Source: Sorex araneus (lineage: Eukaryota; Chordata; Mammalia; Eulipotyphla; Soricidae). Taken from it: a stretch of 64,000 nucleotides of DNA. Positions 20,611-64,000 of the stretch are shown in pieces. The notes under the pieces were generated by a model. That model saw only the letters and a program-made list of their open reading frames with translations, did no database searches and was not told the origin of the DNA. The translations under genes and the position numbers were made by a program. The first letter of the stretch is position 1, and each line of letters starts with the position of its first letter. The stretch lies in the NCBI RefSeq assembly GCF_027595985.1, contig NC_073307.1, positions 45,672,594 to 45,736,593 on the forward strand, in the 5' to 3' direction.

Positions 20611-21235
20611 CAGGCCTTCTTATATAGTTGTCTTCTAAGTCAGGTGGTAAGAGTAAAAAACATAGATGTCTATTTTGGTTAATTTATACAATTGTGCATT
20701 CTTGCTCTATCTTCATGACAAGTCTAGAATTCTCCACTTTTCATTAGTGTAGTTAAAGATAATGTGACTAATGATCATGTCCACATTTTGAATTATGTGT
20801 ATGTAAAGAAAAACAACAACCAAAAAACCAAATACTGAAACTTTTCTAAGTGGACTGTTAGAGGATCAGGGTGAAAATTCACAGGGATTTGAGGTCCCGA
20901 GTGAGGTTCCTGGTTCTTCACCTGCTGGTGGTCCCCATGCAGAGCAGCACTGCATCACTCATCAGAAACCAAGCAGGAAGTGGCCCCAGAAACCCCCAAG
21001 ACCACTTGGGGCAGGCCATATTTTTAAAAGTGGAATCTTTTACATAAAATAGTGGGATGTTATGAGTAGACGCATCCCCCAGCAGCTCATTTATAACCTC
21101 TCCAGCTCCCAACCTGGGTGGAAACAGAAGAAACCTTTCCCTTTGTCTTCCTGTTTAGAGAATGACTACAACAGTCTCCTTAAGACGGGAATCACATGCA
21201 CAGAGGCCAGCCAGCCAGGTGTCTGCTGATAGACG

Positions 21236-21241
21236 TTTATT
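21236..21241 (-). promoter_or_regulatory. Poly(A) signal of inhibitor copy B
   Basis: AATAAA on the minus strand, 98 bases after the stop of copy B, at the same spacing as in copies A and C. Confidence 0.75.
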
Positions 21242-21339
21242 GAAGAATCAAACCCATATGTCCCCCCTGACCCCCAGCCTTTCGAGAGAAATTAGTTCTC
21301 TGAGTGGCGACTGCTGAAAGGAGGAAGCTGGTGCCATGT

Positions 21340-24300
21340 TCATTGGGAAGACACACACTCTCCCTGGTTTCTGAGAGTCAGCGCACCACGGCTCCTCCTA
21401 CAAAAGAAAAAAGGTTATTGCAGATATTTATTTTTTGTGTGAATCAAGGTAGCTTTTATTGAATAAAACTTGCTTGGAAACATGTGAAAGGAGAGAAAGA
21501 GAGCAATGTGTTCAAGGCAGAACCCCGACATCTCCAGAGGGGAAAGAAGCAAGCAAAGAAAAAGACAAGCAAGTGAGATACATAATCAAAGGAGAACTTG
21601 GGTAAACCTGGTTTGTTTTTAAAGAAAGGCTTTGAAAGTCTTGAATGAAAGCTTTCTTAAAACTGTAAATAAAAAAAAAGCTGTCCTTATTCTTATGTCT
21701 ATTTTTTATAAATGAGCATATGGCATTTAATATGAACATATAACTACTGAGCTTCAGTTTAGAAAAAAAATCTGTAAATTTTTTTATACATCACTTAATA
21801 ATATAAACGGACAAGTTTCTTTTTTCTCACTTCACTCCAGAGTCTTCTCACTACTTATTTTCTCTTCCTCTCTCTCCCCTTCCTCTCTTTTGTCCTCTTC
21901 CTGCTCTTCCCATTTAGGGGGAGAAACTGTGATAATCAGTGAACCATTTCTATCTTCAGTTTCTTAGATGTATTAGTTTGTTAGCTAGAACTAAGAGGTC
22001 TTCTTGATCTCTGAGAGATGCTACTTTCAAAACTCATATATTAGCTCTAGCACTTACCAGACAGCGTTGCAAAACATACATTTGTTGGAATATACTTTTT
22101 CATCAGATCCACAGAGAGGCCTATACTCCATGGTACAAGCTTCAGAATACCCAGAGCAACTAATTTCATCCTGTTGAACAATAGATTGAGCAGTAGACTG
22201 AAAATAGAAAAAAAAGAATTAATGATCCAATTAAAACATTGGATCATTTAAAAATGAATTTTCAAATTACCATAAGGAATAGATCATTCATCCCAAAATC
22301 TCATATATGGGAAGACACATCCCCTGCTGTTTGTATAAGCCGGGCCAGGATAACAAGTCCCCATCGAGGCCTCAGTCTAACTCATTCCCTGCATCTGGGT
22401 GACAACTATATCCTAGAGATCCTATCTTGTTCTTAATTTCCAAATTACTCCTCTCATCACCATACTGTCATCCACTTTATTCAAGCTTTTAATATGTCTT
22501 AGATACACAATTGTATATGTCAGTCAATTTACTGACTGTATCAGATTTCCTTACTACTTTATCTGTATCTGAGATTTTAGGCATCTGACATCTATCTTTA
22601 AAAATATAAAACAAATTAGATCTTGCTCTTAATATACTCTACTCATCAAAAATGCTCCTCATATAGTACCTCCAGACTTGTCTGTCTTGCATTCTAGCAA
22701 GTCAAAATGTATCTGTCTTGTATTTTAGCTAAAGTGAATGACTGACTTCCTGGAGTACTTTATTTTTTGCACATTCTGATACCTTTGCTTATGATGTTCT
22801 CCTGTATTTCATTATGGCTGCATCAGATTCATGCCTGATTCTTTTAATGCCAATTTAAGCTATTATCATGTCACTATTTTCATCATGCCATTTTCTTTCA
22901 TCCATTAAATTGGGCTAGGCACCTCACCTTAAAATTATGTCTATTATAATCTTTTTTTCACAAATATCTTGTATAGCATTTTTTTGAGGGGCGAGGCCGC
23001 ACCTAGAAATGCCCAGGAGTAAACTTGGCATTGTGCTCCTCACTCCTGGTGGTGCTCAGGGAACCATAGTCAATGCTGGAGATGAAACCCAAGACAGCCA
23101 CATGCAAGTTAAGTAACTTCCTGATTTCTATGTTTCTGCAAATACTTACACATTCACCATCGTACATTTTTCTGAGAATCATTTTTAATTGTCTGAAAGA
23201 GAAAATTTTGTTAAATAGGAATGTAGTTTTTTGATATTTATGATATCACAAAAATTCATGTCATTTTCTGTTGTCTGATGTGAAAAAAGAATAAGTTCTA
23301 GTTAATAGAATACAGTTTGACTGATACTGACCACCGAAATCTTTGATATGTGAGCTTCTTGCAAGGAACAAAAAATAATAAAACAAGCACTAAAATAAGG
23401 TTGATAATTTTTAAAAATAGTTTGTAAATGTTCACATGAAAATGAAAGTTGTAATGATAGCGTGGAAATATTTTTGTACCATACAAAAAGAAAACTATGC
23501 TTAAATCCAATTGTGGCATTTGAGGTTTTGTCACAAAAAATTTACATGTTCTTAGAAAAGTTATTCTAATTACATTCACGATTTTTGTTGACTACAAATT
23601 TTTAGAAACACTATTTTAAAAATAATAGCATAAAAGAGGAAAAGATTGGTAGAAAGACTTAATTCTGAGTATTCACATTGTGTCAGAGGCTTATATAAAT
23701 TGGACAGATTTTTATCACAGTGAATCCAACATACTACTGTAACTTTTATCATACAGATCAGAATGCTGAAAATTGTAGTGGATAAGGTGTTTAGCTAATA
23801 TCTTAGATATCCTAAGTGCTTTTAGGATATCTAAAAGCAAGCTCCCAGAAGCACGCGGCCACACGATATCTTTAGCCTACTTCTTCCTCTAGGAGAAACT
23901 GGTAATCTTCTGAGAGTTTCCAGCCCACATGGGACAGCCTTGCAAGCTTCCCATGATGTATTCATATGCAAAATCCAGTAAGGAACTGGATCTTATTCCC
24001 CTGACCCTGAAGAGCCCCCAGTGCAACATCATTAGAGGGCCAACTTGAGATAGACTTCTAAGATCACAGGGGAAGGACGAAACGAGATGTTACTGAGCCT
24101 GCTCGAGAAATTGGTGATTAACGGGATATTGTGATTGTTGTGTGATCCTAAGTGCTAACTAGAATTTAATCCATTTGCCCTAAGCACAGAATTCTAACCA
24201 CAAATCATGAAGCAGTGAATTCAGACTTCCAGAATATGAAGGTAATTACTTTTCTTCCATTCTCCTAGAAGCTTAGTCTGTGGAATTGTGAGCACTTAGT

Positions 24301-26158
24301 ATTTTACTAATTTGTGGGTTTTGTGATAGCTGGGACTCCACATTCTCTGATAGAAACAACATGGATTTCCTCAGGAGTATGAAGTTTATTGTTAAAGTTT
24401 TATAGTGACTAACATGACTAACAGCCTAATAGTGCTCTGAGTTTTCATCATGGAACAAGAAAAATGCAAGGGCAAAAATTTATAAAATTTTGTCCAAAAT
24501 GCATAATTAAGAAGAACCAACTTCCTAAGTACAATATGGAAACAAAAATGTCTATATTTAGCACCTAAAACCCAAGAGTATAAATATTAATATTTGACCA
24601 TATAATAGTATATATCCTTAGACATAGCTGCATTTATTATAATTTTTGTGTTGGTAAAACATACCCAAAATTTATTTAACAAAAGGTGGGTTTTATAAAA
24701 CCATGTTTTAAAAAAACCTAGCCATTTTTGACCAGCATGGGCTTGGTAATGTCTTTTAAAGTGAGGGTGGGGCATTCTAAATTGAGAGTTATACTTACTG
24801 GCTTTTCATACAAAGCATGCATTCATTACTGTAAGTATTCCCATCTGAAGCACATACTGGTTTGTATATTCTTGTGCATGCCATCCCGGAACCTTTCCCA
24901 CTGTACCTAGAGCAATCCACCTATAATTGGGAAAAAAGCAAGCAACAAACAGTGTCCTGGATTATCTTGCTGCAAATTTTCAGTTGTTCTAATCTTGAAA
25001 TGGTCAACAGAAAAGTGGGAAGAGCCCTAGACACTTAAACTTTTCTGCAAATAAGTATGAAAGACCATTTACCAATCAGAGACTGTGCAAGTTACACAAA
25101 TATTTCAGACCTAGAAAATACTTTAAATAAAACAAAATTTGTAGTCTAGGAAAGAAATATTAATGTCTCCTTTCAAGAAACATGAATAATAACCAACTGA
25201 ATAATGATTGTGAAAAATCCCTACAAAAGGTTCTGAAGAATTGGTATGGTTCTTGCTTTAAACACAGCTGGACTGGATTCAATTCCTGGCACTCCAAATT
25301 ATTTCATAAGACCATCTGGAATAATCCCAAAAATTTAAATTCCTGAATATCTCCAGGTATTTCCCCAATATACATACACACACATTTTATGAAAACTTAA
25401 AATGCTACTCGAAAGTAAAAGTTCACTTCAGGAGTAGCTTCACTTCCTAAGGAAATGATTTCATTGCTCAAATCTCTTCCTGCCAAGAGGCAGATCAACT
25501 CAACATGGAAAGTATCATGCTAAGTGAAATGAACCAGAAAGAGAGGGACTGACATAGAAAGATTGCACTCATCTGTGGAATATAAAATGGCAGAGTAGGA
25601 GACTAATACTCAAGAATATTAGTATATAATACCAGGAGGTTGGCCCCATGGCTTGGAAGCTGGCCTCACACGCTGGGGGAAAGTCATTTCAGATAGAGAA
25701 GGGGACACCAAGTAAAATGTGATTGGAAATCCCAAGCGGGGAGGGAGATGCAGGCTGAAAGTAGACTAGAGACTGTACATGATGGCCACTCAATACCCCT
25801 ATTGCAAACCACAACTCCCAAAAGGAGAGAGAGAGAAAAAATTGGAATGCTCTGCCACAGAGGTGGAGCGAGGTGGGGGGATGGGATAGGGGGGTGGGAG
25901 GGATACTGGGTTCATAAGTGGTGAAGAATGGACACTGGTGGAGGGATGGGCTCTCAAACATTGCATGACAGAAAACAAGCACAAAAATGTGTGAATCTGT
26001 AACTGTACCCTCACTGTGACTCACCAATTAAAAAATGAATAAACTATATAAAAAAGAATATTTTAACATTAAAAAAGAGGTAGTTGATCTCAATTACTTC
26101 TCCAGTAATATTCACCCAATAGCTCTGATTTAATTTTTGCATCTTTCAATTTTCATCT

Positions 26159-26227
<69 letters not shown>

Positions 26228-26837
26228 GAGAGAGAGAGTAGGTTGTACTCACCCATGACCCCCGTGCTTCATTATCAGAAGAAAGCAATACAAGATGCAA
26301 TTGGGAAAAAAAAAACACAAGTTCCACAGTTAGAAATCAAAACAGGATTCATCATTTACAATCACTGAAAACCATTTTCCTATCCCTGGCTCAGCCTAGA
26401 CCTAAAAAGGATCACTTATTTATTCAGAAGAAACTCATAATGAAGACTGAGAAATGCATGAGCCTGATGAGAGAAATCCCAAAGGAGGGAAATCCCTGAT
26501 AGCTGGATAAAGTCCCCTGGACATTTTCAGAGTTCAGTTAGGCAATGATTTTGGAGTTTCAGATGTTCTGGAAGGACAAGTCAGAAACCTGAGTAGAGCA
26601 CCATAATCCTTTAATTATTCTTTCCATTATCTCTTCCCTTTTTCCCTGAATATCTCACTTACATGACTTCTTTAGTCAGGCCATTCCAAATGCACAGCTC
26701 CTATTTTTAAAGGTTGAATATATTGCAATCAATATAAAAGCATGGATTTCAGAGGGTAATTGAAACTCACCAGTAGGAGAAACAGCCCAGGCAGAAGTTG
26801 CCAGAGCAAGGATGGCACAAACAGTGATGCTCTTCAT
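21340..26837 (-). CDS. Double-headed Kazal protease inhibitor, copy B (complete, 6 coding exons)
   Basis: Secreted serine-protease inhibitor of 147 residues. Coding exons on the minus strand are 26837-26771 (signal peptide), 26266-26253 (14-nt microexon), 24920-24799, 23192-23150, 22197-22058 and 21397-21340 (stop TGA). Splice sites are GT-AG, phases join without a break and the sum is 444 nt. Residues 1 to about 19 form a hydrophobic signal peptide starting [13 protein letters not shown]. Domain I has Cys at 30, 42, 50, 61, 64 and 82, with reactive-site C-T-R-I and P1 Arg44. Domain II has Cys at 96, 103, 111, 122, 125 and 143, with C-T-M-E and P1 Met105. Both have the Kazal spacing x7-x10-x2-x17 after Cys2. 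This matches the carnivore submandibular double-headed inhibitor as I remember it (domain I against trypsin, domain II against chymotrypsin and elastase). Odd points: the usual Gly in the C-G-S-D-G loop of domain II is Glu115, and the linker has 13 residues. The family is clear; orthology and salivary expression are inferred. Confidence 0.88.
22975..23112 (-). mobile_element. Older SINE, antisense (arm B)
   Basis: Antisense body and head matching the SINE at 2990-3160 in arm A. Its head end is lost in a deletion of about 430 bp relative to arm C, which brings it close to exon 4 of copy B. Confidence 0.6.
23821..24144 (+). mobile_element. 324-bp long-form RTE-tailed SINE with 12-bp target-site duplication
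   Basis: Inserted in intron 3 of copy B between perfect repeats ATCCTAAGTGCT (23809-23820 and 24145-24156). Arm C has one copy of the repeat and no insert. The end matches the RTE-type tail (GAGATGTTACTGAGCCTGCTCGAG). The middle carries an extra segment with CTTATTCCCCTGACCCTGAA, also present in the elements at 34340 and 60088. The 5' end differs from the standard tRNA head. Confidence 0.75.
25235..25385 (+). mobile_element. Old SINE fragment (arm B)
   Basis: Worn tRNA-like head (GATTCAATTCCTGGCACTCC) and body ending in a short (CA) stretch. Paralogous to 47870-48040. Confidence 0.5.
25497..26080 (+). mobile_element. LINE-1 3' end in intron 2 of copy B
   Basis: Starts CAACATGGAAAGTATCATGC, runs through the 3' UTR with its G-rich tract and ends in an A-rich tail. 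Arm C reads through the site, so this insertion is specific to arm B. Confidence 0.75.
26160..26238. repeat. (TA)n(GA)n microsatellite next to exon 2 of copy B
   Basis: TA dinucleotides then GA dinucleotides, ending within about 15 bases of the exon 2 donor. Arm C has a much shorter version at 48230-48264. Confidence 0.9.
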
Positions 26838-26906
26838 GGTGACAGTGAGTGAGGTTGGAAGGAACAGAGAGAAAAAGTGGAGTGAGGAATGCACATACAC
26901 CCCTTC

Positions 26907-26913
26907 TTATATA
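26907..26913 (-). promoter_or_regulatory. TATA box of inhibitor copy B
   Basis: TATATAA on the minus strand, about 70 bases before the ATG of copy B, leaves room for a 5' UTR of about 40 bases. The same box is conserved upstream of copy C. Confidence 0.7.
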
Positions 26914-27454
26914 CCCAGCACACCAACACCCAAGGAAGGGGCCCCCCCCTCATTAGGAATTGACATTTTTAGTGTTGATTGGCTGTTAACCCCAGTTATT
27001 AGATTTATTTCAAGGAAATACTGTCAAGGAAAGTTTCCTTATTGTCTTGATTTGTAGACATTTGGAACAGTTGCAACTCTGAAATCTCTGCCAAATACAC
27101 TTTTGCGTAATGATTCCCTGATCTCTCAGCAAATACAGTGCCATGACTGTGTTTCAGGAAAAAAATAGCATCATAGGTATTCTAAAGAGCACGCCATGTA
27201 TCAAGGATATTGCAGTTTATGTCAAATGTGAAAATGCTGAAGCAAAAATTAGAATAATGAAGATATAACTGTAAAATGCATCAGAGTAGGCAAATTTATT
27301 GACGAATCCAAAATAGACTATGGAGTTACTTTATGAAGTCCAATGGAAAGCTTATTAACTGGTTCAATTTATATATACTGATAAGTATTACTGGTGTTTA
27401 GTTGACATTTTTAACTTTAAAGAGAGTCCCATTAGCACCTTTAAACTTCTTTCT

Positions 27455-27590
27455 TGTTTGTTTTGGGGCCACACTAGGCAGTACTCGGATATTACTCCTG
27501 GATCTGTGCTCCGAAGCCCCTCCTGGCAGGGATCAGGTGTAGCAGGCAAGCACCTTACTGGCTATATTATCTCTTAGCCCCAGTACTTTC
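27455..27590 (-). mobile_element. Old antisense SINE
   Basis: Antisense body (GGGGCCACACTAGGCAGTAC) and remains of the head (TCTCTTAGCCCC). Confidence 0.5.
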
Positions 27591-27912
27591 AATTGTCCAT
27601 TTCCTTCTTGTTTTTCTTGGAATTCTATGTTTAGCTTACACTATTTTGAAAATTCATTTTAAATATTTATGCCTTGCCCATATTTCAGTATTTCATCATC
27701 ATCTGAAATGCAGATAATAAAATTAAATGTCCTCCAGATGCTTTTCTGAAGAGGATCAGTGGTCTCCTTCCCAAGTTTTATGGTGAAGAATTTGATTATT
27801 CCGGACATGTTTGAAGTAGCTTGCTGAAATTAGAACAATGACTTGTAGGAGATTGGGACTGGTAGAGTCCAAAATACATACTGTAGTTTTCAACTTTTTG
27901 TCCTTGATAATT
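27591..27912. other. Unassigned sequence upstream of copy B
   Basis: AT-rich DNA without a recognisable gene or repeat. Confidence 0.3.
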
Positions 27913-29100
27913 TAGAAATCAATTTATTTCATCCCACAAATAATTATTATAAGGAAAGCAAGTAAAGGCAACATATTTTTTAAGTCAAAGTCAAATAAAT
28001 ATTGTGGAAGTTTCTGGCTGCCTGGAAGTGGGTCCCTTGGGGAGGGGAGGGCTCTCACTTGTCCCATTCTGGGGTGCCCCATGTGAAGCAGCCTGGTACA
28101 CAGTCTGGTGGCATGGTTATGAGGGACTCATGTTATGATCCCTTTCTGGAGAAGCAGCTATGTAATCCGGACGGTGGTCCATGGTGAGATTATAGCAGGA
28201 AGTGGCTTATGGGCGTGACCCCATGGGTCACCAGAGACTGGGAAAAGTGGCCAGGGGATCTCCGCTCCTGGTTCCATTGAGCCCAGAGTCCAAGCTCACA
28301 AAGTTCTGCATTACCTGGGTTCTGTAGGACTTCACTCATGTACTCAGTGAGGCTCAGACTGAGTACATGATAGTGGCCTTGAGCGTGGGGCGGTTGGGAT
28401 ATGGAGATTTTTGGTGCTGAAGCTGAGTTTCTTGGGGGTAGAAAGGACTTTCACGCGCCCCCTCGCTGGAGTGCCCCAGTGAAGACAGCCTGGCATGGGG
28501 TCAGAATGTTCTGCGGCGCTCTCTTTTGGGGGTTTTAGTTTATAGTCCCTGGGTCTTGGCCATTGATGAGATTACATGGTGCAGGGGACAGTTTGTGGTT
28601 GTGACTGCCAAGCTACTGGAAAACTGGGGACCTGGGGGGAGGAGGCCCAGTCCTGATCGAAGCAGGCCTAGAGCTCTCAGTCACGAGTTCTTACCTACCT
28701 CTGCGCTACAGGCCCTAACTGCATCTTTTGATCTCTTTTGATATTTATGATCTCTGAAATATGGCCGATAAATGAGCTCATATAGCTGAGCAGAGGTGGT
28801 TTGTGAGTGTGTCTCCCACATACTTAACTTTTTGCCATTTAATTTATTGGTAAACTTGGCCCCAAATTGTTAGGGTCTGGTCAAAGGCACAGCAGCAATT
28901 TGGGGGTATCTGGAAGTCTGAAGGCACCATCAGGCTGCTGATGCACTTGCCCCACAGGTACAGGTTGACCTGCTGGCAGCACCATATCCCCTTTTTGCTC
29001 TAGTTTAATTAAGAAATAATTTTCTTTCCTCCCACAAGTAATTATTATAGAGAAAATGAAAAATGCAACATATTTTTAAAGTCAAAGTCAAGTAAATATT
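27913..29100. repeat. About 1 kb GC-richer segment between 90-bp direct repeats
   Basis: Diverged direct repeats at 27913-28003 and 29011-29100 (shared CAACATATTTTT and AAGTCAAAGTCAA motifs) flank a segment with two loosely similar internal units of about 370 bp (near 28010 and 28400). Those units share the CTCTCAC/CTTTCAC...GTGCCCCA...CAGCCTGG pattern. No clear ORF. It could be LTR-derived, a LINE-1 5' UTR array or a local duplication. Confidence 0.45.
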
Positions 29101-29127
29101 TTTTCTATCACTTATGCAAGATTAACA

Positions 29128-29575
<448 letters not shown>

Positions 29576-30439
29576 GAAGGGTGAAAAAGGCAGGGGGACA
29601 GAAAATGAAGAGGAGAAAGAAGGAAAGGATGGAAAGAAAGAAAAAGACCAAAAGAAAGAAAAGAAGAGGAAAGAAAGAATAGAAAGAGAAAAGAAAATAA
29701 AGAGAGAAAGTTATGAAATTATTCATGGTAGAAGGAAAGAGGGCAAAGCAAAATTTGTGTTAAAGGGCTAACTTGAATGTCAGAGTAGAAGCTTATCTTA
29801 GGAAATAGAGGAAACCACTTAAAAGGTTTTAACATAGTACCATCAAATGTGGACTTCAGCTCATTACTCTGCCTACAGTAAATGCCATGGGAGAGACAAG
29901 ACTGAAATCAGAAGATGACTGTTGTGGCCAGTTATGAAAGAATGTAGATAGCTTGAACCAAAGAATTTTTAACTCTGGAGGTTTAAAGAGGAAGGGGAAG
30001 ATGATAGCTAGATTTCAGGCTTATCTAGTTTTACTTTGTTCAAATGTAATATGGCTGATTAGTAGAAGTTTTAAAATATAAAATTAAATATACCAATGTT
30101 TAAAAGAGAGTACTTGAAAATGAGAAAGAGAGAACTATTGTAAAAGAGGGAGGCAGTCAAGTTCATTACAAATCTATTGAATAAATCTACAGAAAGGGAA
30201 AACAAATTAAATAAAGGAGGACCAAGAATAAAAGAACAAAAGTTAAAACACACTGGCATCAGTAATATTAACATGTGCCATAACAGATAGAGATGGAACA
30301 TAGAATGTCCTGCCAGAAAACAAGTCATTTTTCATAATAATATATGTTGCATGGCTAAATAAAAATTCCATCAAGGAAGACAAATATTTGGTGTTCCTCT
30401 AACTGGATGACTTATGTAAAGCAGGGAAAAGAAATATGG

Positions 30440-31150
30440 TCACTTTTTCCCTATCCACCTCTGCCACCCGGGACCCAGGGCTATTGGGTTCTTGTCTCAC
30501 TTTGCAGAAAGGAACTTCAGGAGTATACAACCAGTGAAGTAAAACAGATTTTATTTGGAGAGTTTTGAAGGACAGAGGGAGAGAAAAGTGGGAGAGAGAG
30601 TAACGCTCTCAAGAGAGAATGTGGGCTTCTCCAAGGGCGGAGAGAGCCCCTACACGAATCCTAGTATTAGATATGGAAGCAGGAAAGCACACATCTCAAG
30701 AGGGGAAATGCAGGCAACACATGTGCTCAGGGAACACATGTGCTCGGCCACTTGGGCACAAGCAGCAAATGGGCTCAGGCAGCATATGCATGCCCTTCCT
30801 TTGTTCAAGATGGCCTTTATAGGGTGATTCTGCAATCTGTCCCCACTTGGGACTTCGACCTAGGTAAAAGTCCATTGCGAGGGGGTTGTCAAGGGTGGTG
30901 GGTTTGGGAGTGGTGATGGTCTTCTTTGAAGTTCCTCTCCTAGCCTTTTGTCTCTGCAGGAGCTTCTCTGGGAGGTGGGTGTCCAGCCCTGTCTGGGCCT
31001 GTTGCTGTCACCAAGTGAGGGTCTTTTCAGGCCTCAGTTCCTGTGTTCTGCAAGGTTGGCTTTTGCAACTTCAGGGCTATCACTTCTAGGAAATTGACTG
31101 ACATTGCCTTGGGAGGGGGCCTTCCCTCCCTGCCTGCCTGCCTACATCAG
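30440..31150 (-). mobile_element. Solo-LTR-like segment, D1
   Basis: On the minus strand a CCTATAAAGG TATA-like box (30816-30821) lies about 260 bases before an AATAAA (30550-30555) and a pyrimidine/T-rich stretch, an arrangement like an LTR. No retroviral internal region adjoins it. Ends are approximate. It could also be an unrelated retroposed or host sequence. Confidence 0.4.
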
Positions 31151-31467
31151 GGGCACCTTCAGTGCCAGTACTCTGTATGCCTAAAACCCAACTATGAATA
31201 ACATTGTAAATCGTGGCGCTTTAATTTTAAAGAATCCCCAGTATGGCCGCTGAGATGTCGCCTCATCCAAACATGTTAAATCTATTGTTCCTTGTTACTT
31301 TTATTTTGATCCAGATTTCTATTTTACATACTAGAGTTCACCCCTGAAAATCACCTTTCAAATGATCAGATTCACTTACTCTTGGTTTTTCTTATTACTA
31401 TGGAGTCAACTCATGGTATCTATAAACAGTTTTCTCCTTTTTATGATTTCCTTTTTGTTGTTATCTT

Positions 31468-31630
31468 TGTTCTGGGCCATACCCATTGGTGCTCAGGGCT
31501 TGCTACAGGGCTCTGTGCTCAGGGATCACTCCTGGAGTGCTGGGGGATCATATGGGAAACTAGGGGTCAAAAGCAGATCGCCACGTGCAAGACAAATACC
31601 CTACACACTGCACTATTCCTCCAGTTCTGC
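31468..31630 (-). mobile_element. Antisense SINE, D1
   Basis: Antisense body (CTCAGGGATCACTCCTGG) and head (CTATTCCTCCAG). Shared with 56945-57105. Confidence 0.65.
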
Positions 31631-31709
31631 CTTGTGATTTTCTTAATGACAGTTTCTTGTTTCTAGCTTATTTTGTTATAAGGGTATATCATCTATTCTA
31701 GATCTGTAT

Positions 31710-31955
31710 GCATGAGCGATAGCATAGCAGGTAGGGTGTTTGCCTTACATGCTGCCAACCTGGATTTGATTCCTCCGTCCCTCTCAGAGAGCCCAGTAAG
31801 ATACCGAGAGTATCCCGCCTGCATGGCAGAGCCTGGTATGTTACCTGTAGTGTATTCCGTCTGCCAAAAACGTAACAACAAGTGTCACAACAGAGACGTT
31901 ACTGGTGCCCACTCGAGCAAATTGATGAACAACGGGACAACAGTGCTATAGTGCA
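31710..31955 (+). mobile_element. RTE-tailed SINE, D1
   Basis: Head GCGATAGCATAGCAGGTAGG, body with GCAGAGCCTGG, and tail GACGTTACTGGTGCCCACTC followed by ACAGTGCTATAGTG. Confidence 0.8.
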
Positions 31956-32365
31956 TGTATGCATGTAATGAAACAAACCTCTGACTCTGAGCCATTAAGT
32001 CCCACATTGTAGGTTGCCCGATTCCTAGCTGTCCCCCTGGCTGTTGTAGCTGATTTGGATGGGAGACCTCATACTTGACTCAGTTAGTTCTCCCAGAGAA
32101 GTGCCTTGTGGAAGTATTAGGTCTTCTAAAGTCTATGGATGCAAATATTTCACCAGCCCCAATGGGCAACTGTTCCAGCTGCCTCTGAGGCCCGTCTGAT
32201 CTTCACAGTGCAGGAACTGGTTCCCAGAATCCAAGTTCTCTTTGAGTTGTGGTCTCAGACTGGTGCAAGGAATTATTTTTAACAGCTAAAAGAAAGCTAG
32301 TTGTAACCCCCTGCTGAGATTTCTAGGCCCATTGACTACCCTAATAGAAAAGAATTTTAGGAGGT

Positions 32366-32628
32366 CAAATGGACTGGAGTGATAGCACAGCGGGTAGGAT
32401 ATTTGCCTTGTATGGGGCCAACCCAGGTTCGATTCATCCGTCCCTCTCGGAGAGCCCGGCAAGCTATAGAGAGTATCCCACCCACAAAGCAGAGCCTGGC
32501 GAGCTACCTGTAGCGCATTTGATATGCCAAAAACAGTAACAACAAGTGCCACAATAGAGCTGTCACTGGTTCCCACTAGAGCAAATTGATGAAAACGGGA
32601 CAACAGTGCTATGACAATAGTGCTATGA
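32366..32628 (+). mobile_element. RTE-tailed SINE, D1
   Basis: Near-consensus head (GTGATAGCACAGCGGGTAGG) with B box GGTTCGATTC and a diverged tail (GCTGTCACTGGTTCCCACTA). Counterpart at 57844. Confidence 0.8.
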
Positions 32629-32892
32629 TAAATATCAAAATAGTTTTGTTTTCTTTCTTGGGAATATGAAGAAGGAAAGAAACAGACAGACAAAAAGAGA
32701 CAGAGAGAGATTATGGTGAATCTCAGAATTAAGAATGTGTCACTTGCCTTTGCAGAGAGCATCCCCCAAACTTCTTCCTCTTGGGCCTTTCTGTGTAGAC
32801 AGGAGTTTGCTGCTAGAAGATTGTCCTAAGGGGAAGACCTTGTTCTTACACAACTTTCTGTTTCAAGAAAAGAACACCAAATGCTCAAAAAC

Positions 32893-33070
32893 AGGGCTGG
32901 AGACATAATGTAAGGTTAGGACGTACATCTTGCACATATCCAAACCCAATTCTATCCATGTTATTACACTAAGTCCCCAAATGCTGCCAGGAATGATCCC
33001 TGAGTATAGAGACAGGAGTAAGCCCTGTTCATTGATGGGTATGGTCCAAAATAAAACCGCAACCAAAAAA
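32893..33070 (+). mobile_element. Old A-tailed SINE, D1
   Basis: Starts ACAGGGCTGGAGACATAATG and ends with a GGGTATGGTCCAAAATAAAA-type junction. Counterpart at 58372. Confidence 0.6.
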
Positions 33071-34339
33071 CCCCTTATGAACAGCAAAACTGAGCTCAAA
33101 GAGAGGCAAAGAGAGGGTGAAATATTGGGATGTAGAAGGAACACTGCAACTGGCTTCCAGGGATGAAAAAAAAATTAAAAAATAGAATCAAAGTGTTCCA
33201 ATAGCTTATATTCTCATGTATTATCCTCTCTTTTCTTTCTCCTTTCTTATCTTTACCAACCATGTCAAGAATCAAGGACAGTAAGGGACTTGACTGAATA
33301 TCATCTTTGTAAACAGCTCCTAAGGCATAGCTTCTGCATCAGAATAGTCAGTAAACCAGGTAAAGAACCTGGTGCTGTTTCATGGACAAATTATGGCCCC
33401 CCCATTTAAAAAAATTAGGCACCATGATTTCTAATATTGATAAAGGCAGATTTTGTTCATAAAATATTCCAACACTATACTCTATCCCAGTGTCAGCTGA
33501 CCTCCACCATTGCCCCCAAACTTCCCAATCCTATTCTCCCCCCATCCCCCTATAGTAATACACATTCTGTCCTTTGGTCTTAGATTCTTTAGTCAAAATC
33601 CTTTCCAGAATTCCACTAAATTTCAGGGGACTTCAAAGATGCATCTCATTCAGACACAATTTTTTGAAAGGAACTTTATTCTCCAGGTAAGAATTTTCCT
33701 CAAAATAAAAACATATTCAACAACCTGATTTAATATCTACAAACCTTGTTACTTCAACCCTCGTCCAATAATTCGTTCCCTTTCACCCTTCTTTCCAAAC
33801 ATTAGAGACATTTGCAGATGTTTGACAAATACTTTTCTTCCCACATTCATGACTGGAGGAATTAATTCTGTCCTCTTTGGAAATAGATCTTTAACTGAGC
33901 AAAAATTATGGAGCACTTACTCTGTTCCAGGAAGTGTACCGGGTACTTTATAGAAAATACTTTATCTTACTAACAATCCTACAAAGCAGGTTGTAATAGC
34001 CTTGTTTCGTAGATTTGATAACTGAGGCTCAACAAAAATGAAAAAATTGCCAGTATCCTCCATATGGTAAGTGGCAATATCAGAATGTCAGCTTAAAGCA
34101 TTTTTCTGTAGCTTTATAAGTTATCATAACTTTTAAACTAACTTTTAGTACATGTAATTCATGTATTTTTATTCATGTTGACAGTAGGATTGTCTTCCCC
34201 ATACTAGGCTATTTCAATATAACCTTTTTCTAATTTTAAGTATCATTTTTAAAGCTTTTCATTTAAAATATTTTTATATTTCAATTTAGAAGTATACATT
34301 TTTTCATTTAATGACATATCATCATAAAGGGATGGATAT

Positions 34340-34612
34340 ATGCCTCTCAGAGAGCCCAGTAAGCTACCAGGAGTATCCCACTCACACAGAAGAGCCTGGC
34401 ATGTTCCGCGTGGAATATTCTATATGCCAAATACAATAACAGTAATAGGTCTCATTCTACTGACTCTGAGAAGAGCCTCCATTCGTTGGGAAAAACGAGT
34501 AAGGAAAGGCTGCTAAAATCTCAGGGCTGGGAAGAATGGAGATGTTACTGGCGCTCACTTGAGTAAATTGATGAACAACGAGATGACAGTGATACAGTGG
34601 TTGTGATTATAT
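34340..34612 (+). mobile_element. Long-form RTE-tailed SINE, D1
   Basis: Lacks the tRNA head. The body contains the extra middle segment (near GAAGAGCCTCCATTCGTTGG) and ends with the RTE-type tail and GATGACAGTGATACAGTGG. Confidence 0.7.
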
Positions 34613-35865: not shown

Positions 35866-36117
35866 CAGACTGGAGTGATAGCACAGCGGGTAGGGCGTTT
35901 GCCTTGCATGTGGCTGACCCGGGTTTGATTCCTCCATCCCTCTTGGAGAGCCTGGAAATCTACTGAGAGTATTCCGCCCTCAGGGCAGAGCCCAGCAAGC
36001 TACCCGTGGCATATTCGATATGCCAAAAACAGCAACAACAAGTCTCACAATGGAGACGTTAGTGGTGCCTGCTTGAGCAAATCGAAGAAAAATGGGATGA
36101 CAGTGCTACAGTGCTAT
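35866..36117 (+). mobile_element. RTE-tailed SINE
   Basis: Good head (GATAGCACAGCGGGTAGGGC), full body, tail AGACGTTAGTGGTGCCTGCT and an ACAGTGCTACAGTGCTA end. Confidence 0.8.
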
Positions 36118-54204: not shown

Positions 54205-55075
<871 letters not shown>

Positions 55076-55929
55076 GGTGAAAGAAAATGAAGGGAAGAAA
55101 GAAGTAAAGGATGGAGAGAAGGAAGAAAAGAAAAGAAGAAAAAAACAAAATGAGAAGGAAAGAAAGAGTAGAAAGAAAATAAAGAGAGAAAGGAAATTAT
55201 TCTTGTTACGAGGAAAGAGGGCAAAGCAAAAGTTGTTGTTAAAGGGCTAAATTGAATGTCAGAGTTAGTATCTTATCTTAGGAAATAGAGGAAACCACTT
55301 AAAAGGTTTTAACATAGTACCATCAAATGTGGACTTCAGCTCATTACTCTGCCTACAGTAAATGCCATGGGAGAGACAAGACTGAAATCAGAAGATGACT
55401 GTTGTGGCCAGTTATGAAAGAATGCAGATGGCTTGAACCAAAGAATTTTTAACTCTGGAGGATTAAATAAGAAGGGGAAGATGATAACTAGATTTCAGGC
55501 TTATCTAGTTTTATTTTGTTCAAGTATAATATGGCTGATTAGTAGAAGTTTTTTAATATAAAATTAAATATACCAATATTTAAAAGAGGATACTTGGTAA
55601 TGAGAAAGAGAGAACTGTTGTAAAGGAGGGAGGCAGTCAAGTTCATCAGAAATCTGTTGAATAAATCTACAGAAAAGGATCACTAATTAAATAAAAGATC
55701 AAGGATGAAAGAACAAAAATTAAAACACATTGGCATGAGTAATATTAACATGTGCCATAACAGATAGGGATGGAACATAGAATGTCCTGCCAGAAAACAA
55801 GTCATTTTCATAATAATATATGTTGCATGGCTAAATAAAAATTCCAACAAGGAAGACAAATATTTGGTGTTCCTCTAACTGGATGACTTATGTAAAGCAG
55901 GGAAAAGAAATATGGTCACTTTTTCCCTA

Positions 55930-56620
55930 TCCACCTCTGCCACCCGGGACCCAGGGCTATTGGGTTCTTGTCTCACCTTGCAGAAAGGAACTTCAGGAGT
56001 AGACAACCAGTGAAGTAAAACAGATTTTATTTGGAGGGTTTTAAAGGGCAGAGGGAGGGAAAAGTGGGAGAGAGAGTAACGCTCTCAAGAGAGAATGTGG
56101 GCTTCTCCAAGGGCGGAGAGAGCCCCTACATACATCCTAGTATTAGATATGGAAGCAGGAAAGCACACATCTCAAGAGGGGAAATGCAGGCAACACATGT
56201 GCTCAGGGAACACATGTGCTCGGCCACTTGGGCACAAGCAGCAAATGGGCTCAGGCAGCATATGCATGCCCTTCCTTTGCTCAAGACGGCTTTTATAGGG
56301 TGGTTTTGCAATCTGTCCCCACTTGGGACTTCGACCTAGGTAAAAGTCCATTGCGAGGGGGGTTGCCAAGGGTGGTGGGTTTGGGAGTGGTGATGGTCTT
56401 CTTTGAAGTTCCTTTCCTGGCCTTTTGTCTCTGCAGGAGCTTCTCTGGGAGGGGAGTGTCCAGCCCTGTCTGGGCCTGTTGCTGTCACCAAGTGAGGGTC
56501 TTTTCAGGCCTCAGTTCCTGTGTTCTGCAAGGTTGGCTTTTGCAACTTCAGGGCTATCACTTCCCAGGAAATTGACTGACATTGCCTTGGGAGGGGCCCT
56601 TCCCTCCCTGCCTGCCTGCC
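55930..56620 (-). mobile_element. Solo-LTR-like segment, D2
   Basis: Paralogue of the D1 segment with TATA-like box at 56292-56297 and AATAAA at 56026-56031. The two copies are highly similar. ORFs of about 100 codons are present in both but start and end differently. Confidence 0.4.
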
Positions 56621-56944
56621 TTCATCAGGGGCACCTTCAGTGCCAGTCCTCTGTATGTCTAAAACCCAACTATGAATAACATTGTAAATCATGGCGCTTT
56701 AGTTAAAAAGTATCCCCAGTATGGCCGCTGAGATATCGTTTTCTCAAAACATGTTAAATCTATCGTTCCTTATTACTTTTACTTTGATCCAGATTTCTAT
56801 TTTACATAGTAGAGTTCACCCCTAAAAATCACCTTTCAAATAATCAGACCCACTTACTCTTGTTTTTTCTTATTACTATGGAGTCAACTCAAGGTATCTA
56901 TAAACAGTTTTCTCTTCCTTATGATTTCCTTTTTGTTGTTGCCT

Positions 56945-57105
56945 TTGATCTGGGCTATACGTATTGGTACTCAGAGCTTACTACAGGGCTCTGTGCTCAG
57001 GGATCACTCCTGGAGAGCTGAGGGATCATACAGGATGCCAGGATTAAAACCAGATCGCCATGTGCAAGACAAATACCTACCCATTGCACTATTGCTCCAG
57101 TTCTG
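56945..57105 (-). mobile_element. Antisense SINE, D2
   Basis: Counterpart of the D1 element at 31468. Confidence 0.65.
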
Positions 57106-57182
57106 CCTTGTGATTTTCTTAATGAGTTTCTTGTCTCTAGCTTATTTTGTTGTAACGATATGTCATTTGTTCTAAATATATA

Positions 57183-57435
57183 TGCATAGAGCAATAGCAC
57201 AGAGAGTTGGGCATTTGCCTCGAATGCAGCCAACCTGGGTTCAATTCCTCCATCCTTCTCAGAGAGCCCAGTAAGATACTGAGAGTATCTCGCCTGCATG
57301 GCAGAGCCTGGCAAGTTACCTGTAGCATATTCGGTATGACAAAAACAATAACAACAAGTGTCACAACAGAGACGTTACTGGTGCCCGCTCGAGCAAATCG
57401 ATAAACAATTGGGACAACAGAGCTATAGTGCATAT
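57183..57435 (+). mobile_element. RTE-tailed SINE, D2
   Basis: Counterpart of 31710. The tail reads GACGTTACTGGTGCCCGCTC. Confidence 0.8.
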
Positions 57436-57843
57436 ATGCATGTAATGAATCAAACCTCTGACTCTGAGCCATTAAGGCCCACATTGTAGGTTGCCCAATT
57501 CCTACCTGTCCCCCTGGCTGTTGTAGCTGATTTGGATGGGAGACCTCATACTTGACTCAGTTAGTTCTCCCAGAGAAGTGCCTTGTGCAAATATTAGGTC
57601 TTCTAAAGTCTATGGATGCAAATATTTCACCAGCCCCAATGGACAACTGTTCCAGCTGCCTCTGAGGTCCGTTTGATGTTCACAGTGCAGGAACTGGTTC
57701 CCAGAATCCAAGTTCTCTTTGAGTTGTGGTCTCAGACTGGTGCAAGGAATTATTGTTAACATGTAAAAGAAAGCTAGTTGTAACCCCCTGCTGAGATCTA
57801 GGCCCATTGACTACCCTAATAGAAAAGAATTTTAGGAGGTCAA

Positions 57844-58110
57844 ATGGACTTGAGTGATAGCACAGCAGGTAGGGCATTTGCCTTGTATGGGGCCAACCCA
57901 GGTTCGATTTATCCGTCCCTCTCGGAGAGCCCGGCAAGCTATAGAGAGTATCCCGCCCACAAAGCAGAGCCTGGCGAGCTCCCTGTAGCGCATTTGATAT
58001 GCCAAAAACAGTAACAACAAGTGCCACATTAGAGCTGTCACTGGTTCCCCCTAGAGCAAATCAATGAACAATGGGGACAACAGTGCTATGACAATAGTGC
58101 TATGATAAAT
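57844..58110 (+). mobile_element. RTE-tailed SINE, D2
   Basis: Counterpart of 32366. It shares the diagnostic GCTGTCACTGGTTCCC tail. Confidence 0.8.
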
Positions 58111-58371
58111 ATCAAGATAGTTTTGTTTTGTTTTTTGGGAATATGAAGAAGGAAAGAATCAGACAGATAGACAAAAAGAGACAGAGAGATTATGGTCACT
58201 CTCGGAATTAAGAATGTGTCACTCGCCTTTGCAGAGAGCATCCCCCAAACTTCTCCTTCTTGGGCCTTTCTGTGTAGACAGGAGTTTGCTGCTAGGGGAT
58301 TGTCCTAAAGGGAAGACCTTGTTCGTATCACAATTTTCTGTTTCAAGAAAAGAACACCAAATGCTCAAAAA

Positions 58372-58560
58372 CAGGGCTGGGGACATACTATAGAGTTAAG
58401 ATGCACATTTTACACACACCCAAACCCAATTATAGCCATGTTATTGCATAAAGTCCCCAAATGCTGCCAGGAGTGATCCCTGAGCACAGAGCTAGGAGTA
58501 AGCCCTGATCATTGCTGGGTATGTCCCCAAATAAAATAACAACCCAACCCCCCCTCAAAA
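58372..58560 (+). mobile_element. Old A-tailed SINE, D2
   Basis: Counterpart of 32893. Confidence 0.6.
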
Positions 58561-58952
58561 ACATCAAAACTGAGCTCCAGGAGGGGCAAAGAGAGGGTGA
58601 AGTATTGGGATGTAAAAGGAACACTGCAAGTGGCTTCCAGGGATGAAAAAAAATGAAAAAATTGAATCTAAGTGTTCCAATAGCTTATCTTCTCATGTAA
58701 CATCCTCTCTTTTCTTTCTCCTTCCTTATCTTTACCAACCATGTCAAGAACCAAGGAGAGTAAGGGACTTGGCTGAATACCATCTTTGTAAACAGCTCCT
58801 AAGGCATAGCTTCTGCATCAAAATAGTCAGTAAACTAGATTAAGAAACTGGTGCTGTTTCATGGACAAATTATGCCCCCCCCATTAAAAAAATAGGCCCC
58901 ATGATTTCTAATATTGATAAGGCAGATAAAATATTACAACAATATACCCTGT

Positions 58953-59199
58953 GGCCTGGAGCAATAGCACAGCTGTAGGGCGTTCGTCTTTCAAGTGGCC
59001 AACCCGTGTTCGATTCCTCCATGCCTCTCAGAGAGCCCGGCAAGCTACCGAGAGTATCTCGCCCGCATGGCAGAGCCTGGCAAGCTACCTGTGGCGTATT
59101 TGATATGACAAAAACAGTAACAATAAGTCTCACAATGAGAGACGTTACTGGTGCCCCTTTTGAGCAGATCGATGAGCAAGGGAAGACAGTGACAGTGAC
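58953..59199 (+). mobile_element. RTE-tailed SINE specific to D2
   Basis: Head, body and RTE-type tail (GACGTTACTGGTGCCCCTTT) ending in GACAGTGACAGTGAC. The 7-bp repeat ACCCTGT (58946-58952 and 59200-59206) flanks it. D1 lacks the insert near 33470. Confidence 0.82.
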
Positions 59200-60087
59200 A
59201 CCCTGTACCAGTGTCAGCTGACCTCCACCATTGCACCAATACTTCCCAATCCTATTCTCCCCACAGCCCCCTACAGTAATACACATTCTGTCCTTTGGTC
59301 TTAGATTCTTTAGTCGAAATCCTTTCCAGAATTCCACTAAATTTCAGGGGACTTCAAAAGATGCACCTCATTTGGACCCAATTCTTTGAAAGGAACTTTA
59401 TTCTCCAGGTAAGAATTTTCCTCAAAATAAAAATCTATTCAGCAACCTGATTTAATACCTACAAATCTTGTTATTTCAACCCTTGTCCAGTAATTCATTT
59501 CCTTTTACAATTCTTTCCAAGCATGAGAGACATTTGCAGATGTTTGACAAATACCGTTCTTCCCACATTCATGACTGGGGAAATTAATTCTGTCCTCTTT
59601 GGAAATAGATCTCTAACTGAGCAAAAATTTATGGAGCACTTACTCTGTTCCAGGAAGTGTACCGGGTACTTTATAGAAAATACTTTATCTTACTAACAAT
59701 CCTACAAAGCAGGTTGTAATAGCCTTGTTTCGTAGATTAGATAATTGAGGCTCACCAAAAGTGAAAAAATTGCCAGTATCCTCCATATGGTAAGTGGCAA
59801 TATCAGAATGTCAGCTTAAAGCATTTTGCTGTAGCTTTAAAAGTTATCATAATTTTTAAACGAACTTTTAGTACTTGTAATTCATGTATTTTCATTCATG
59901 TCAACAGTAGGATTATGTCTTTTTCATACTAGGCTATTATTATATAACCCCTTTTTAATTTTAAATATCATTTTTAAGGCTTTTCATTTAAATATTTTAT
60001 ATTGAATTTGGAAGTATACATTTTTTCACTTAATTACACATCATTATAAAGGGAAACATATATACATATATATATATATATTTATAT

Positions 60088-60320
60088 ATACCACCTGCAC
60101 AGAAGAACCTGGCAAACTCCCCGGGGCATATTCAATATGCCAAATACAGTAAAATTGCAGGACTTATTCCCCTGACCCTGAAAAGAGCCTCCAATTGTTG
60201 GGGAAAATTAGTAAAGAAAGGCTGCTAATATATCAGGGCTGGGACAAATGGAGATGTTACTGGCGCCTGCTTGAGTAAATCCATGGACAGGATGACAGTG
60301 ATACAGTGATACGGTGATTG
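60088..60320 (+). mobile_element. Long-form RTE-tailed SINE, D2
   Basis: Counterpart of 34340 with GGGACAAATGGAGATGTTAC leading into the RTE-type tail. It abuts an RTE element in the opposite orientation. Confidence 0.7.
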
Positions 60321-62767
60321 TGATTATATCACTTGTATCACCTGTAGTCCCATTGATCTTCGATTTGCTCGAGCGGGCGCCAGTAACGTCTCCATTTGTC
60401 CCTATCGCGAGCCAGTGCAGCCCAATGATATCTGCTCACTCCAGGAACAGGAAGAGCGTCAAATCGTTCATTCAGGGATTTGACAAAGAAATCTGACCAT
60501 CTAGCTGGTGGGCAGCCGCGAGGTCTTCTGACGTCCTGTGGAATCCAGTTGGTAACAGCTCTAGTCTAACGGTCATCTCTGAATCGCATTACATGATCGG
60601 CCCATCTGATTTCTGATGCTTTGGCAAACGAGACAGCATCCCTGAATTTTAACCGTAGACAGAGGTCAGAACTCCAGATTCCTTCTCTCACCTGAGTGAG
60701 ATATGATATTCCCAGCATAGCTATTTCAATTCCTCTTTGGGATACCCTAATAGCATTCTCATCCTGTTTGCGTAGGGCCCAGGTCTCTGAAGCATATGTT
60801 AGTGCAGGAAGAACGGTGGAATCGAAAAGATGTGCCCGGAGTCGAAGGTTCTTTGTTCTCTTAACCACCTCTTTGATGCTCTTGAATGCATTCCACGCTG
60901 CTCTCTTCCTCCTTTGCAGTTCTGGCACCAAGTAGTTCCTCATATTGATTTCTCCACCCAGGTACACATAGCTGCTGCATTCGGAGATGATCGTTCCATT
61001 GAGAGCAAATGGAGCTTCAGGGATCAGTTCATTTTTCATGAGCTTTCCACACTCAAGGTCAAAGTCGGCCAGCATTTGTGCGGCTTGGCTAATGTTTGGT
61101 GTTATGAGAACGATGTCTTCAGCGAAGCAGAGGTGGTGTAATTGCCGACCGTCTATCTTCACTCCCATTTCTTCCCATTGCAGTCGATGCATGATGTTCT
61201 CAAGGGTGGCACTGAAGAGTTTTAGTGAAATGGTATCACCCTGCTGCACCCCTCTCTTTACATCAATGATCACTTCCTTGTAGAATGGTGAGATCCTGGT
61301 GGTGAATCCACAATACAGCTCAAGGAGGATTTTGATATACTGAGTTTGAACGCCCTGTTTGGCCAGGGCTTTGATGACTGCCTCAGTCTCAACAGAATCG
61401 AAGGCCTTCTTTAAGTCGGTGAATGTTAGACAGAGCGGCATCTTGAACTCTCGAGAAACTTTAATGAGTTTGGTCACTGTGTGGATATGGTCTATCGTGC
61501 TGAATCCCCTTTGGAACCCGGCTTGCTCACGTGGTTGTCCTTCGTCTAGTGTTCTGCCTATTCTATTCAGGATGACACGAGTGAACAACTTGTAGACGAC
61601 AGACAGCAGGCAGATTGGGCGATAGTTGCCGATGTCCTGGATGTCTCCCTTCTTGTACAACAGAACGGTCCTACTGGTTTTCCACTGATATGGAACCTTG
61701 CATTCAGACAGGTAGCATGTGAAGCGTCGGGCCAGTGTATTGGTGAGTACTGGTGGTAGATTCTTCAGGTGCTCAGGTCTGGCCTTGTCGAGACCAGATG
61801 CTGTTTGCGTCTTTACCAGCGAAATCCGGATTTCAGAAGGGAGAACGTTGAGAACAACATATCCATCCTGCGAAATTTGGTATGTGGGCAGGTGGACATG
61901 GCTGTCAAAGAGATCCGAGTAGAAGTCGTGAATAATTTTCTCCATTGCCTTTCTGGAGGATGTGATAGATCCATCGAGATGTTGGAGGGCAGTCATCTTG
62001 GTCTTGTAGTTGGCTAAGGGCAGGGGAGCGTTGCGAATACTTTTCCCGGCTTCTGCTGCACTGGCCAACACTGCTGCTCTTCTCTCTTTGAGGTCTTCCT
62101 TTATCACATCTCTGCACAGCTTTGTGAGCTCGGACATTAGCTTGTGGTTGCCTGAGGCTCGCGCCAAACAACATTGACGAATCAGCTCAAGAGTTTCCGA
62201 AGACAGGCGTCTGTTTGTGGCCTTCTCACTCTCAGCATTCTTCACACAGACATGGAGGTGCTAAACCAGTGGATAGTATTCCTCGTCGATGTTGTCAAGG
62301 ATGGCATCTTCCCGTCTTTGGCACTATTGTTGCTACAATAGTGCCAAAGAGTTCCCAGTTGGTGGTCATTCTGGGAGTTATCTTCTTAGACTTAAATTTT
62401 GCAGACTTTTCTCCCCACTCTGTGAAGTAGAATTTTGCACGAAGGAGATGATGGTCTGATCCCATTTGGAATTTTGTTTGGGACAACAGCGACATCGGTC
62501 AGGCAAAACCTTCGATTGAATATGATGTGGTCAATTTTACTGTGGAACTGTCCACCGGGAGACTCCCATGTCCAACGTTTAGATTCGGCTTTCTGGAACT
62601 TCGAGTTACCATGGGTGTCTTGGTTGACATGATGAATTCAGACAGTCTCTCACTCTTATTGTTCCATTCTAGGCCATGTGTCCCAATGTGGAATTCTTCG
62701 GGCGACCTTCTCTTGGCATTAAAATCACCAACAATGATCTTGTAGAAGGTGTGGTCTTCTTTATAGA
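60321..62767 (-). pseudogene. 5'-truncated RTE-clade LINE (endonuclease and reverse transcriptase), decayed
   Basis: Minus-strand retrotransposon. A partial APE-type endonuclease lies at its 5' end (V-G-D-F-N-A-K near 62720 and S-D-H-H-L-L-R-A-K-F near 62450), broken by at least two frameshifts. A reverse-transcriptase frame of 559 codons (62245-60566) shows N-Y-R-P-I-C-L-L, Q-A-G-F-Q-R-G-F-S-T-I-D-H-I and L-K-K-A-F-D-S. After the TAG at 60566-60568 the same frame continues to a TGA at 60338-60340, through R-W-S-D-F-F and D-K-W-R-R-Y-W-R-P-L-E-Q-I. The open frame has no ATG at 62245 (it begins with GTG), and an upstream in-frame TAG is visible. The catalytic box reads F-A-E-D instead of F-A-D-D (E near residue 376), so this copy should be inactive. 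The protein resembles RTE elements of nematodes as I remember them. Confidence 0.88.
62316..62349. repeat. Perfect short-loop hairpin inside the RTE element
   Basis: Arms CTTTGGCACTATTGT and its exact reverse complement are separated by TGCT; adding one more flanking pair gives 16 bp. It sits where the endonuclease and RT coding parts meet and where the reading frame shifts. Confidence 0.8.
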
Positions 62768-62828
62768 ACTATAAAAATATATTATATAAAAATATAAATA
62801 TATAATAAATATAAATAATATATTTATA
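62768..62828. repeat. AT-rich low-complexity tract
   Basis: A/T-only stretch between the truncated RTE and the truncated LINE-1. Confidence 0.7.
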
Positions 62829-64000
62829 AGACAAGGTCAGCAAAACCCTTCACGATATTGAAGCGAAAGGTATCTTCAAAGATGACATGGAACTAAGCAA
62901 TCAAATAAAAACAGAGTTAAACAAATGGAACTACATTAAACTAAGAAGATTCTGCACCGCAAAAGACACAGGGACCAGAATACAAAAGCAATCTACAGAA
63001 TGGGAAAGGATATTCACCCAATACCCATCTGATAAAGGATTGATATCAAGAGTATACAAAGCACTGGTTGAACTCTACAAAAAGAAAACATCCAACCCCA
63101 TCAGAAAATGGGCCAAAGAAATGAACAGAAACTTTTCCGAGAAAGAGATATGAATGGCTAAAAGGTACATGAACAAATGCTCTACATCACTAATCATCAG
63201 GGAGATGCAGATCAAAACAACCATGAGATATCACCTCGCACCACAGAGAATGGCACACATCCAAAAGAGCAAAAGCAACTGCTGTTGGAGAGGATGTGGA
63301 GAGAAAGGGCCCTTCTACACTGCTAATGGGAATGCCGACTGGTCCAGCCAGCCCCTTTGGAAAACAATATGGATGATTCTTAAAAAATTAGAAATTGAGC
63401 TTCCATTTGATCCAGCAATATCACTGTTGGGAATATATCCTGGAGAAACAAAAAAGTATAGTCGAAATGACATCTGCACTTATATGTTCATCGCGGCACT
63501 GTTCACAATAGCCAAAATCTGGAAAAAACTTGAGTGCCCTAGAACAGATGACTGGTTAAAGAAACTGGTACATCTATACAATGGAATACTATGCAGCTGT
63601 TAGAAAATATGAAGTCATGAACTTTGCATATAAGTGGATCAACATGGAAAGTATCATGCTAAGTGAAATGAGCCAGAAAAAGAGGGACAGGCATAGAAAG
63701 ATTGCACTCATCTGTGGAATATAAAATAACAGAGTAGAAGACTTACATCCAAGAATAGTAGTATATAATGCCAGGAGGTTGGCTCCATAACTTGGAAGTG
63801 GGCCTCTCATGTTGGTGGAAAGTCATCCCAGATAGAGAAGGGAACACCAAGTAAAATGTGATTGGAGATCCTGCGCGGGGAGCAAAATGTGTGCTGAAAA
63901 TAAACTAGAGACTGAACACTATGGTCATTCAATGCCCCTGTTGCAAACCACAACACCCAAAAGGAGGGAGAGAGAACAAATGGGAATGCCCTGCCACAGA
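62829..64000 (+). pseudogene. 5'-truncated LINE-1 (ORF2 C-terminus and 3' UTR), cut by window edge
   Basis: Begins inside ORF2 and keeps the [15 protein letters not shown] segment and the region of the CCHC motif. An in-frame TGA lies at 63151-63153 where the intact element has Arg, and further frameshifts fall near 63330 and 63565. The 3' UTR continues to the window end. Non-functional. Confidence 0.9.

Follow-up and report, generated by a model that had tools for sequence, protein, structure and literature searches.

A shrew SINE composed of a tRNA-like head and both ends of an RTE LINE related to strongylid nematode elements

The architecture of the shrew SINE analysed here is already known from Bov-tA, the AviRTE SINEs and the hagfish SINEs (PMC3747384, PMC4844689, PMC7245038). 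Bov-tA and Bov-A likewise join a tRNA head to parts of an RTE-clade LINE, BovB, although both LINE and head differ from those of the shrew SINE (PMC3747384), and BovB, too, is described as a horizontally moving LINE (PMC13295347). The AviRTE SINEs of birds are alike in carrying a promoter-bearing head on a bipartite tail of LINE 5′ and 3′ sequence, after a transfer involving nematodes, but their 3′ part is the whole ∼40 bp 3′ UTR, whereas that of the shrew SINE is nearly all coding (PMC4844689). The hagfish SINE2/SINE1 families with RTE tails also combine an internal RTE deletion with a small-RNA head, though with another head and LINE and, in the accessible text, no tie to a parasite (PMC7245038). 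On the LINE side, a horizontal transfer of RTE1_Sar between strongylid nematodes and Sorex araneus has been published (PMC6542046). The accessible text of that paper contains no occurrence of SINE, tRNA, UTR or tail, and the one other paper mentioning RTE1_Sar in the literature searched does no more than cite it. The accessible parts of that literature give no account of the present SINE, for which an entry in repeat databases may exist. The present SINE has a nearly all-coding tail and a partner LINE that is horizontally transferred and linked to a parasite.

The window, a 64-kb stretch of the S. araneus genome, contains an RTE LINE copy on the minus strand at 60328–62770, which has an RVT_1 domain (E 2.1e-22) and one in-frame stop (60566–60568) and breaks off within the endonuclease region at about 62770. 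Judged by its relatives and by the published description, this copy fits the RTE1_Sar type. L1-like reading frames at 62828–63996 (+) adjoin its truncated end and match window 15560–16716 at 85.5%. At three other RTE loci (L013, L015 and L023), the 5′ segment is inverted relative to the reverse transcriptase, as after 5′ inversion during insertion.

A preliminary description of the window had noticed that the end of this RTE matches the 3′ end of a SINE over ∼70 nt and had proposed a partnership of the two. The match was borne out: window 60327–60396 (minus strand), which comprises the last codons of the RTE, its stop codon (60338–60340) and the terminal repeat, aligns with SINE consensus 184–251 at 88.6% over 70 nt. 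Loss of the similarity in consensus sequences would have spoken against the partnership, but it persists there, with a local score of 54 between the two consensus 3′ ends compared with a mean of 10.2 and a maximum of 18 in 1000 dinucleotide shuffles. This consensus alignment, which includes five substitutions and two one-base gaps, runs from AATGGAGACGTTACTGG to GTGATA, and the RTE parts that match the SINE 3′ end are the last 56 coding nt, the stop codon and the 10-nt tail repeat. The RTE C-terminus reads ...DKWRRYWRPLEQIEDQRDYK-stop in the consensus.

It had also been claimed that the shared segment is mostly coding because the RTE nearly lacks a 3′ UTR, and this holds across copies. The first in-frame stop, a TGA inside the terminal repeat, has the same position in 35 of 46 RTE-class tails; 3′ of it, nine bases are conserved at 0.86 or more and the tenth at 0.74, with values of at most 0.49 beyond. 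The shared segment is therefore essentially coding, and the RTE is practically without a 3′ UTR. RTE-clade elements are known for unusually short 3′ UTRs (PMC1291365), and the overlap with coding sequence is a consequence of this feature. We also considered, and rejected, the idea that the shared 3′ end has a conserved fold: the two consensus ends fold alike, yet their predicted folds are no better than those of shuffles (z 0.24 and −1.0), so that no structural recognition element is shown for the 3′ end, and RNAalifold found no structure in the pooled tails.

To compare individual tails we used five reliable diagnostic sites, leaving out two misaligned gap sites. Only one of the 46 sampled RTE tails (L010) is SINE-like at all five, and two further tails of the RTE-class set are partly so (L003 2899, which belongs to a headless derivative as described below, and L029 4226); the exact donor of the SINE tail is thus probably missing from the sample. 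The L010 copy carries its SINE-type 3′ end at 3404–3471, 95% identical to the SINE tail over 60 nt, and is possibly an RTE subfamily or a recombinant.

The relation between the two elements extends to the other end of the LINE. SINE consensus 66–176 is identical to the RTE 5′ consensus at 105 of 111 nt without gaps (score 99, shuffle maximum 25), and the RTE counterpart of this segment sits upstream of the endonuclease domain (for example at loci L010, L012, L019 and L035), with RTE sequence extending on both sides of it. The SINE is accordingly laid out as a head (nt 1–67), an RTE 5′ part and an RTE 3′ part, with ∼180 of its ∼250 nt derived from the RTE; on this sequence comparison, it is a tRNA-Ala-like head joined to both RTE ends. 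Because the SINE also holds 111 nt of the RTE 5′ end, the partnership is more strongly supported than the preliminary description had claimed. The 5′ part had escaped that description, as had the fit to RTE1_Sar and the headless nature of the neighbouring element at 60087–60318.

This neighbour belongs to a class of elements that have the RTE 5′ and 3′ ends but no tRNA head, and which account for seven of the tails (window 34343–34599 and 60087–60318, L002, L003, L018, L026 and L045). The copy at 60087–60318 (+) is 5′ truncated and stands tail to tail with the RTE, while its duplicate at 34343–34599 (+), in a stretch where 33487–34599 matches 59208–60308 at 88.0%, has no RTE after it. Among them, the L003 element (3081–2825) differs in its inner junction and seems to represent a second type of deletion, which suggests that internal deletions of the RTE arose more than once.

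The headless derivatives could be intermediates on the way to the SINE or a side branch. That the SINE formed straight from a full RTE, its 5′ and 3′ ends joined with a head, and that the headless derivatives are a separate branch, is possible but doubtful. In favour of this reading, the match of the SINE to the RTE 5′ consensus runs ungapped through its 111 nt, and the inner part retained by the headless derivatives is missing from the SINE. Against it, similarity of the SINE to the headless consensus extends beyond that to the RTE by a few bases, to about position 182, and headless derivatives have part of the tail states of the SINE, with one tail site in the shared state in 5 of 7 headless tails and 41 of 42 SINEs compared with 4 of 46 RTEs. 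They are also more diverged from their own consensus, with a median non-CpG K2P distance of 0.181 (n = 7), than the SINEs, at 0.118 (n = 20, duplicated window copies included and two outlying values of 0.37 and 0.43 kept). RTE-class tails have a median of 0.060 (n = 46, three values of 0.41–0.64 kept), but most of these were selected for their resemblance to the window copy, and they include at least one headless derivative (L003 2899); owing to this selection, RTE and SINE ages are not ranked.

The head has a second carrier in the same genome. ARAGORN calls a tRNA-Ala(tgc) in the consensus heads of both this SINE and a second family, while the Rfam tRNA model gave 15.8 bits, under its 29-bit threshold, for the one copy tried, and the window's own SINE copies yielded no tRNA calls. 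By eye, the head contains box-like TAGCACAGCGGG and GGTTCGATTCC, in keeping with the Pol III box consensus. Among 100 heads in 307,524 bases of the window and loci, a non-random sample because loci had been selected for RTE or SINE matches, 30 run into the RTE-derived body and 70 into another body, most of the latter, by eye, into one common body that we take to be that of the SOR SINE. An example in the window at 10732–10796 (+) is 93.9% identical to the consensus head and stands on this other, presumably SOR-type, body. The SOR-type copies have a median K2P distance of 0.138 (n = 68, range 0.014–0.63), and since this range brackets the SINE, the tRNA-like head was probably available throughout the SINE's time. 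The two families share nt 1–67, the SOR body having no RTE parts and the present SINE having an RTE-derived body instead of the SOR body. Sor is named as a SINE of the shrew genome (PMC11240701).

The SINE is abundant. With up to 2 mismatches allowed in 32 bases, its junction has 89,993 matches in the 2.4-Gb genome, with 0 for the reversed control. By comparison, a 22-mer from the RTE 3′ coding region has 17,540 matches, a headless-type 28-mer has 39,397, which may include old full-length RTEs, and the RTE-type end has 1,453; as the stringencies of the junction, 22-mer and 28-mer counts differ, the ∼5 to 1 ratio of SINE junction to RTE 22-mer matches is a rough one. Direct repeats flank some of the copies: a score of at least 9 was reached by 6 of 24 full-length SINEs but by 0 of 69 mismatched pairs, and for 10 of the 24 no repeat was found. 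The tRNA-like head, the lack of poly(A) and the ACAGTGATACAGTGAT-like tails previously ascribed to these SINEs were all confirmed. It is very unlikely that the RTE-derived tail is incidental and that L1 mobilises the SINE, since the copies end in RTE-type repeats instead of a poly(A) tail and the SINE junction recurs about 90,000 times; what this explanation has in its favour is the L1-like sequence in the window and a plausible L1 client in the SOR-type SINE, which shares the head.

In several loci (L004, L005, L007, L028 and window 60303–60336), the tails of a SINE or headless element and of an RTE face each other across a short AT-rich spacer. By eye, this spacer is about one direct-repeat copy in L004, L005, L007 and L028; loci L002–L008 were retrieved with a query for the tail-to-tail arrangement and so form a biased set. 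Such pairs were considered as a special mode of insertion, but the genome holds 73 inverted tail pairs at a spacing of 65–95 compared with 60 at 365–395, and the strict SINE–RTE tail-to-tail pattern occurs three times. Given no clear genome-wide excess, we treat them as ordinary neighbouring insertions.

Within the window, 12 tails are of the shared type: eight with a SINE body, two of headless RTE derivatives (34535 and 60247), one unclassified (244) and that of the RTE itself. At the unclassified tail, SINE consensus 161–258 aligns at 89.8%, and we annotate a SINE 3′ fragment at 221–318 (+). Full-length SINEs, all on the plus strand, lie at 2400–2653 (85.2% to the consensus), 35870–36116 (89.9%), 58953–59201 and, as two pairs of duplicates, at 31714–31953 and 57184–57430 and at 32371–32611 and 57846–58088; a SINE without head (consensus 84–250) lies at 1565–1729 (+). 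The duplicates arise from a segmental duplication of 29284–34599 and 54770–60308 (88–91% in two blocks), which makes 31714/57184, 32371/57846 and the headless pair 34343/60087 duplicated insertions. A wider, interrupted direct duplication relates 16952–34599 to 40173–60308 in blocks of 88–95% at offsets of about 22–26 kb, so that many repeats of the window are duplicated insertions. The earlier count of at least ten SINE copies in the window therefore stands only if headless copies are included, and it overstated their independence.

The same duplication provides a natural empty site: at 58953, one of its copies holds a SINE, located by consensus alignment, that is missing from the other copy. 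This SINE is flanked by a 7-bp ACCCTGT direct repeat by eye, where the automatic repeat finder scored 0. Likewise, the RTE follows the headless element in the second duplication copy only, with an AT-rich far flank that has no confident match. Most simply, both this SINE and the RTE inserted after the duplication.

The direction in which the shared sequence passed is indicated by relatives of the LINE. A search with the natural open frame of L015 yielded 1209 passing proteins, and every species-named one among the best 120 listed is strongylid (Necator, Ancylostoma, Haemonchus, Nippostrongylus and Heligmosomoides). The list includes relatives with RVT_1 and endonuclease domains, and its top eleven proteins are 69–74% identical to the L015 frame. 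The present RTE is in this respect like RTE1_Sar, described as an RTE LINE abundant in the shrew with strongylid relatives (PMC6542046), its own strongylid relatives being the named proteins among the best 120. In a tree of 26 proteins, the three shrew copies group together (100/100) within the strongylid set, and three more distant nematode-type sequences stand apart from that set; the exact place of the shrew branch is without resolution. Of the best 120 of the 1209, 36 carry the C-terminal motif no more than 60 residues from their end (Nippostrongylus P0040, for instance, has WRRYWRPLEQIDDQRDDR), which argues that the shared segment passed from LINE to SINE. The opposite direction, with the LINE acquiring its 3′ end or 5′ segment from the SINE, is scarcely credible. 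The shared sequence is by itself symmetric, and a SINE-type end does occur on one RTE copy (L010), but the motif stands near the end in relatives whose named members are strongylid, 35 of 46 LINE copies have the segment as coding sequence, and the Haemonchus protein P0018 has a related N-terminal stretch.

With transfer from LINE to SINE preferred, some residues may point to the age of the captured parts. Read in the RTE frame over 17 residues, the SINE differs from P0040 at 2 and from the shrew RTE consensus at 4, and the headless derivative reads KERLLKSQG and HSPDPE where Haemonchus P0018 has RERLLKSQG and HSPEPE and the shrew RTEs have KERLKKS[WR]G and HSPVTE. This is only suggestive of capture from an older form of the RTE: one nematode protein (P0027) likewise has the DY state, the ED state is seen in Necator, and the 5′ comparison depends on P0018, with Necator extensions differing there.

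Taken together, the comparisons make it very probable that the SINE is a chimera mobilised by an RTE of the RTE1_Sar type, most likely in trans. The process would have begun with the arrival of this LINE, horizontally shared with strongylid nematodes, and internal deletion of the RTE would have left derivatives with 5′ and 3′ ends only. One such shortened derivative would then have been joined, near nt 66, to the tRNA-Ala-like head also carried by the host's SOR-type SINE, most simply through template switching during reverse transcription, and the head would supply a Pol III-type promoter. The RTE reverse transcriptase would accept the resulting SINE RNA through the last 56 coding nt and the terminal repeat and would insert it by target-primed reverse transcription. 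The order of these steps is inferred, as is recognition of the RNA through its coding stretch; in that case a tail of about 68 nt, of which 56 are LINE-coding, would suffice for mobilisation in trans.

The wider reading, which we favour somewhat, is that a LINE which passed between parasitic worms and a mammal gave rise, by way of headless derivatives and with a captured host SINE head, to a SINE family of ∼90,000 copies or more whose recognition element would be the LINE's coding end, so that each SINE would carry codons of the reverse transcriptase that mobilises it, and SINE and headless copies would preserve older, nematode-like states. The SINE ties the published worm–shrew retrotransposon transfer to a large secondary amplification and shows how an invading LINE can come to carry the head of a host SINE. 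Because the RTE is almost without a 3′ UTR, the RNA element seen by its enzyme would, if recognition is sequence-specific, lie largely in codons, and the SINE would bound that element to about 68 nt. Finally, the SINE and headless copies may keep fossil states that would be useful to date the transfer.
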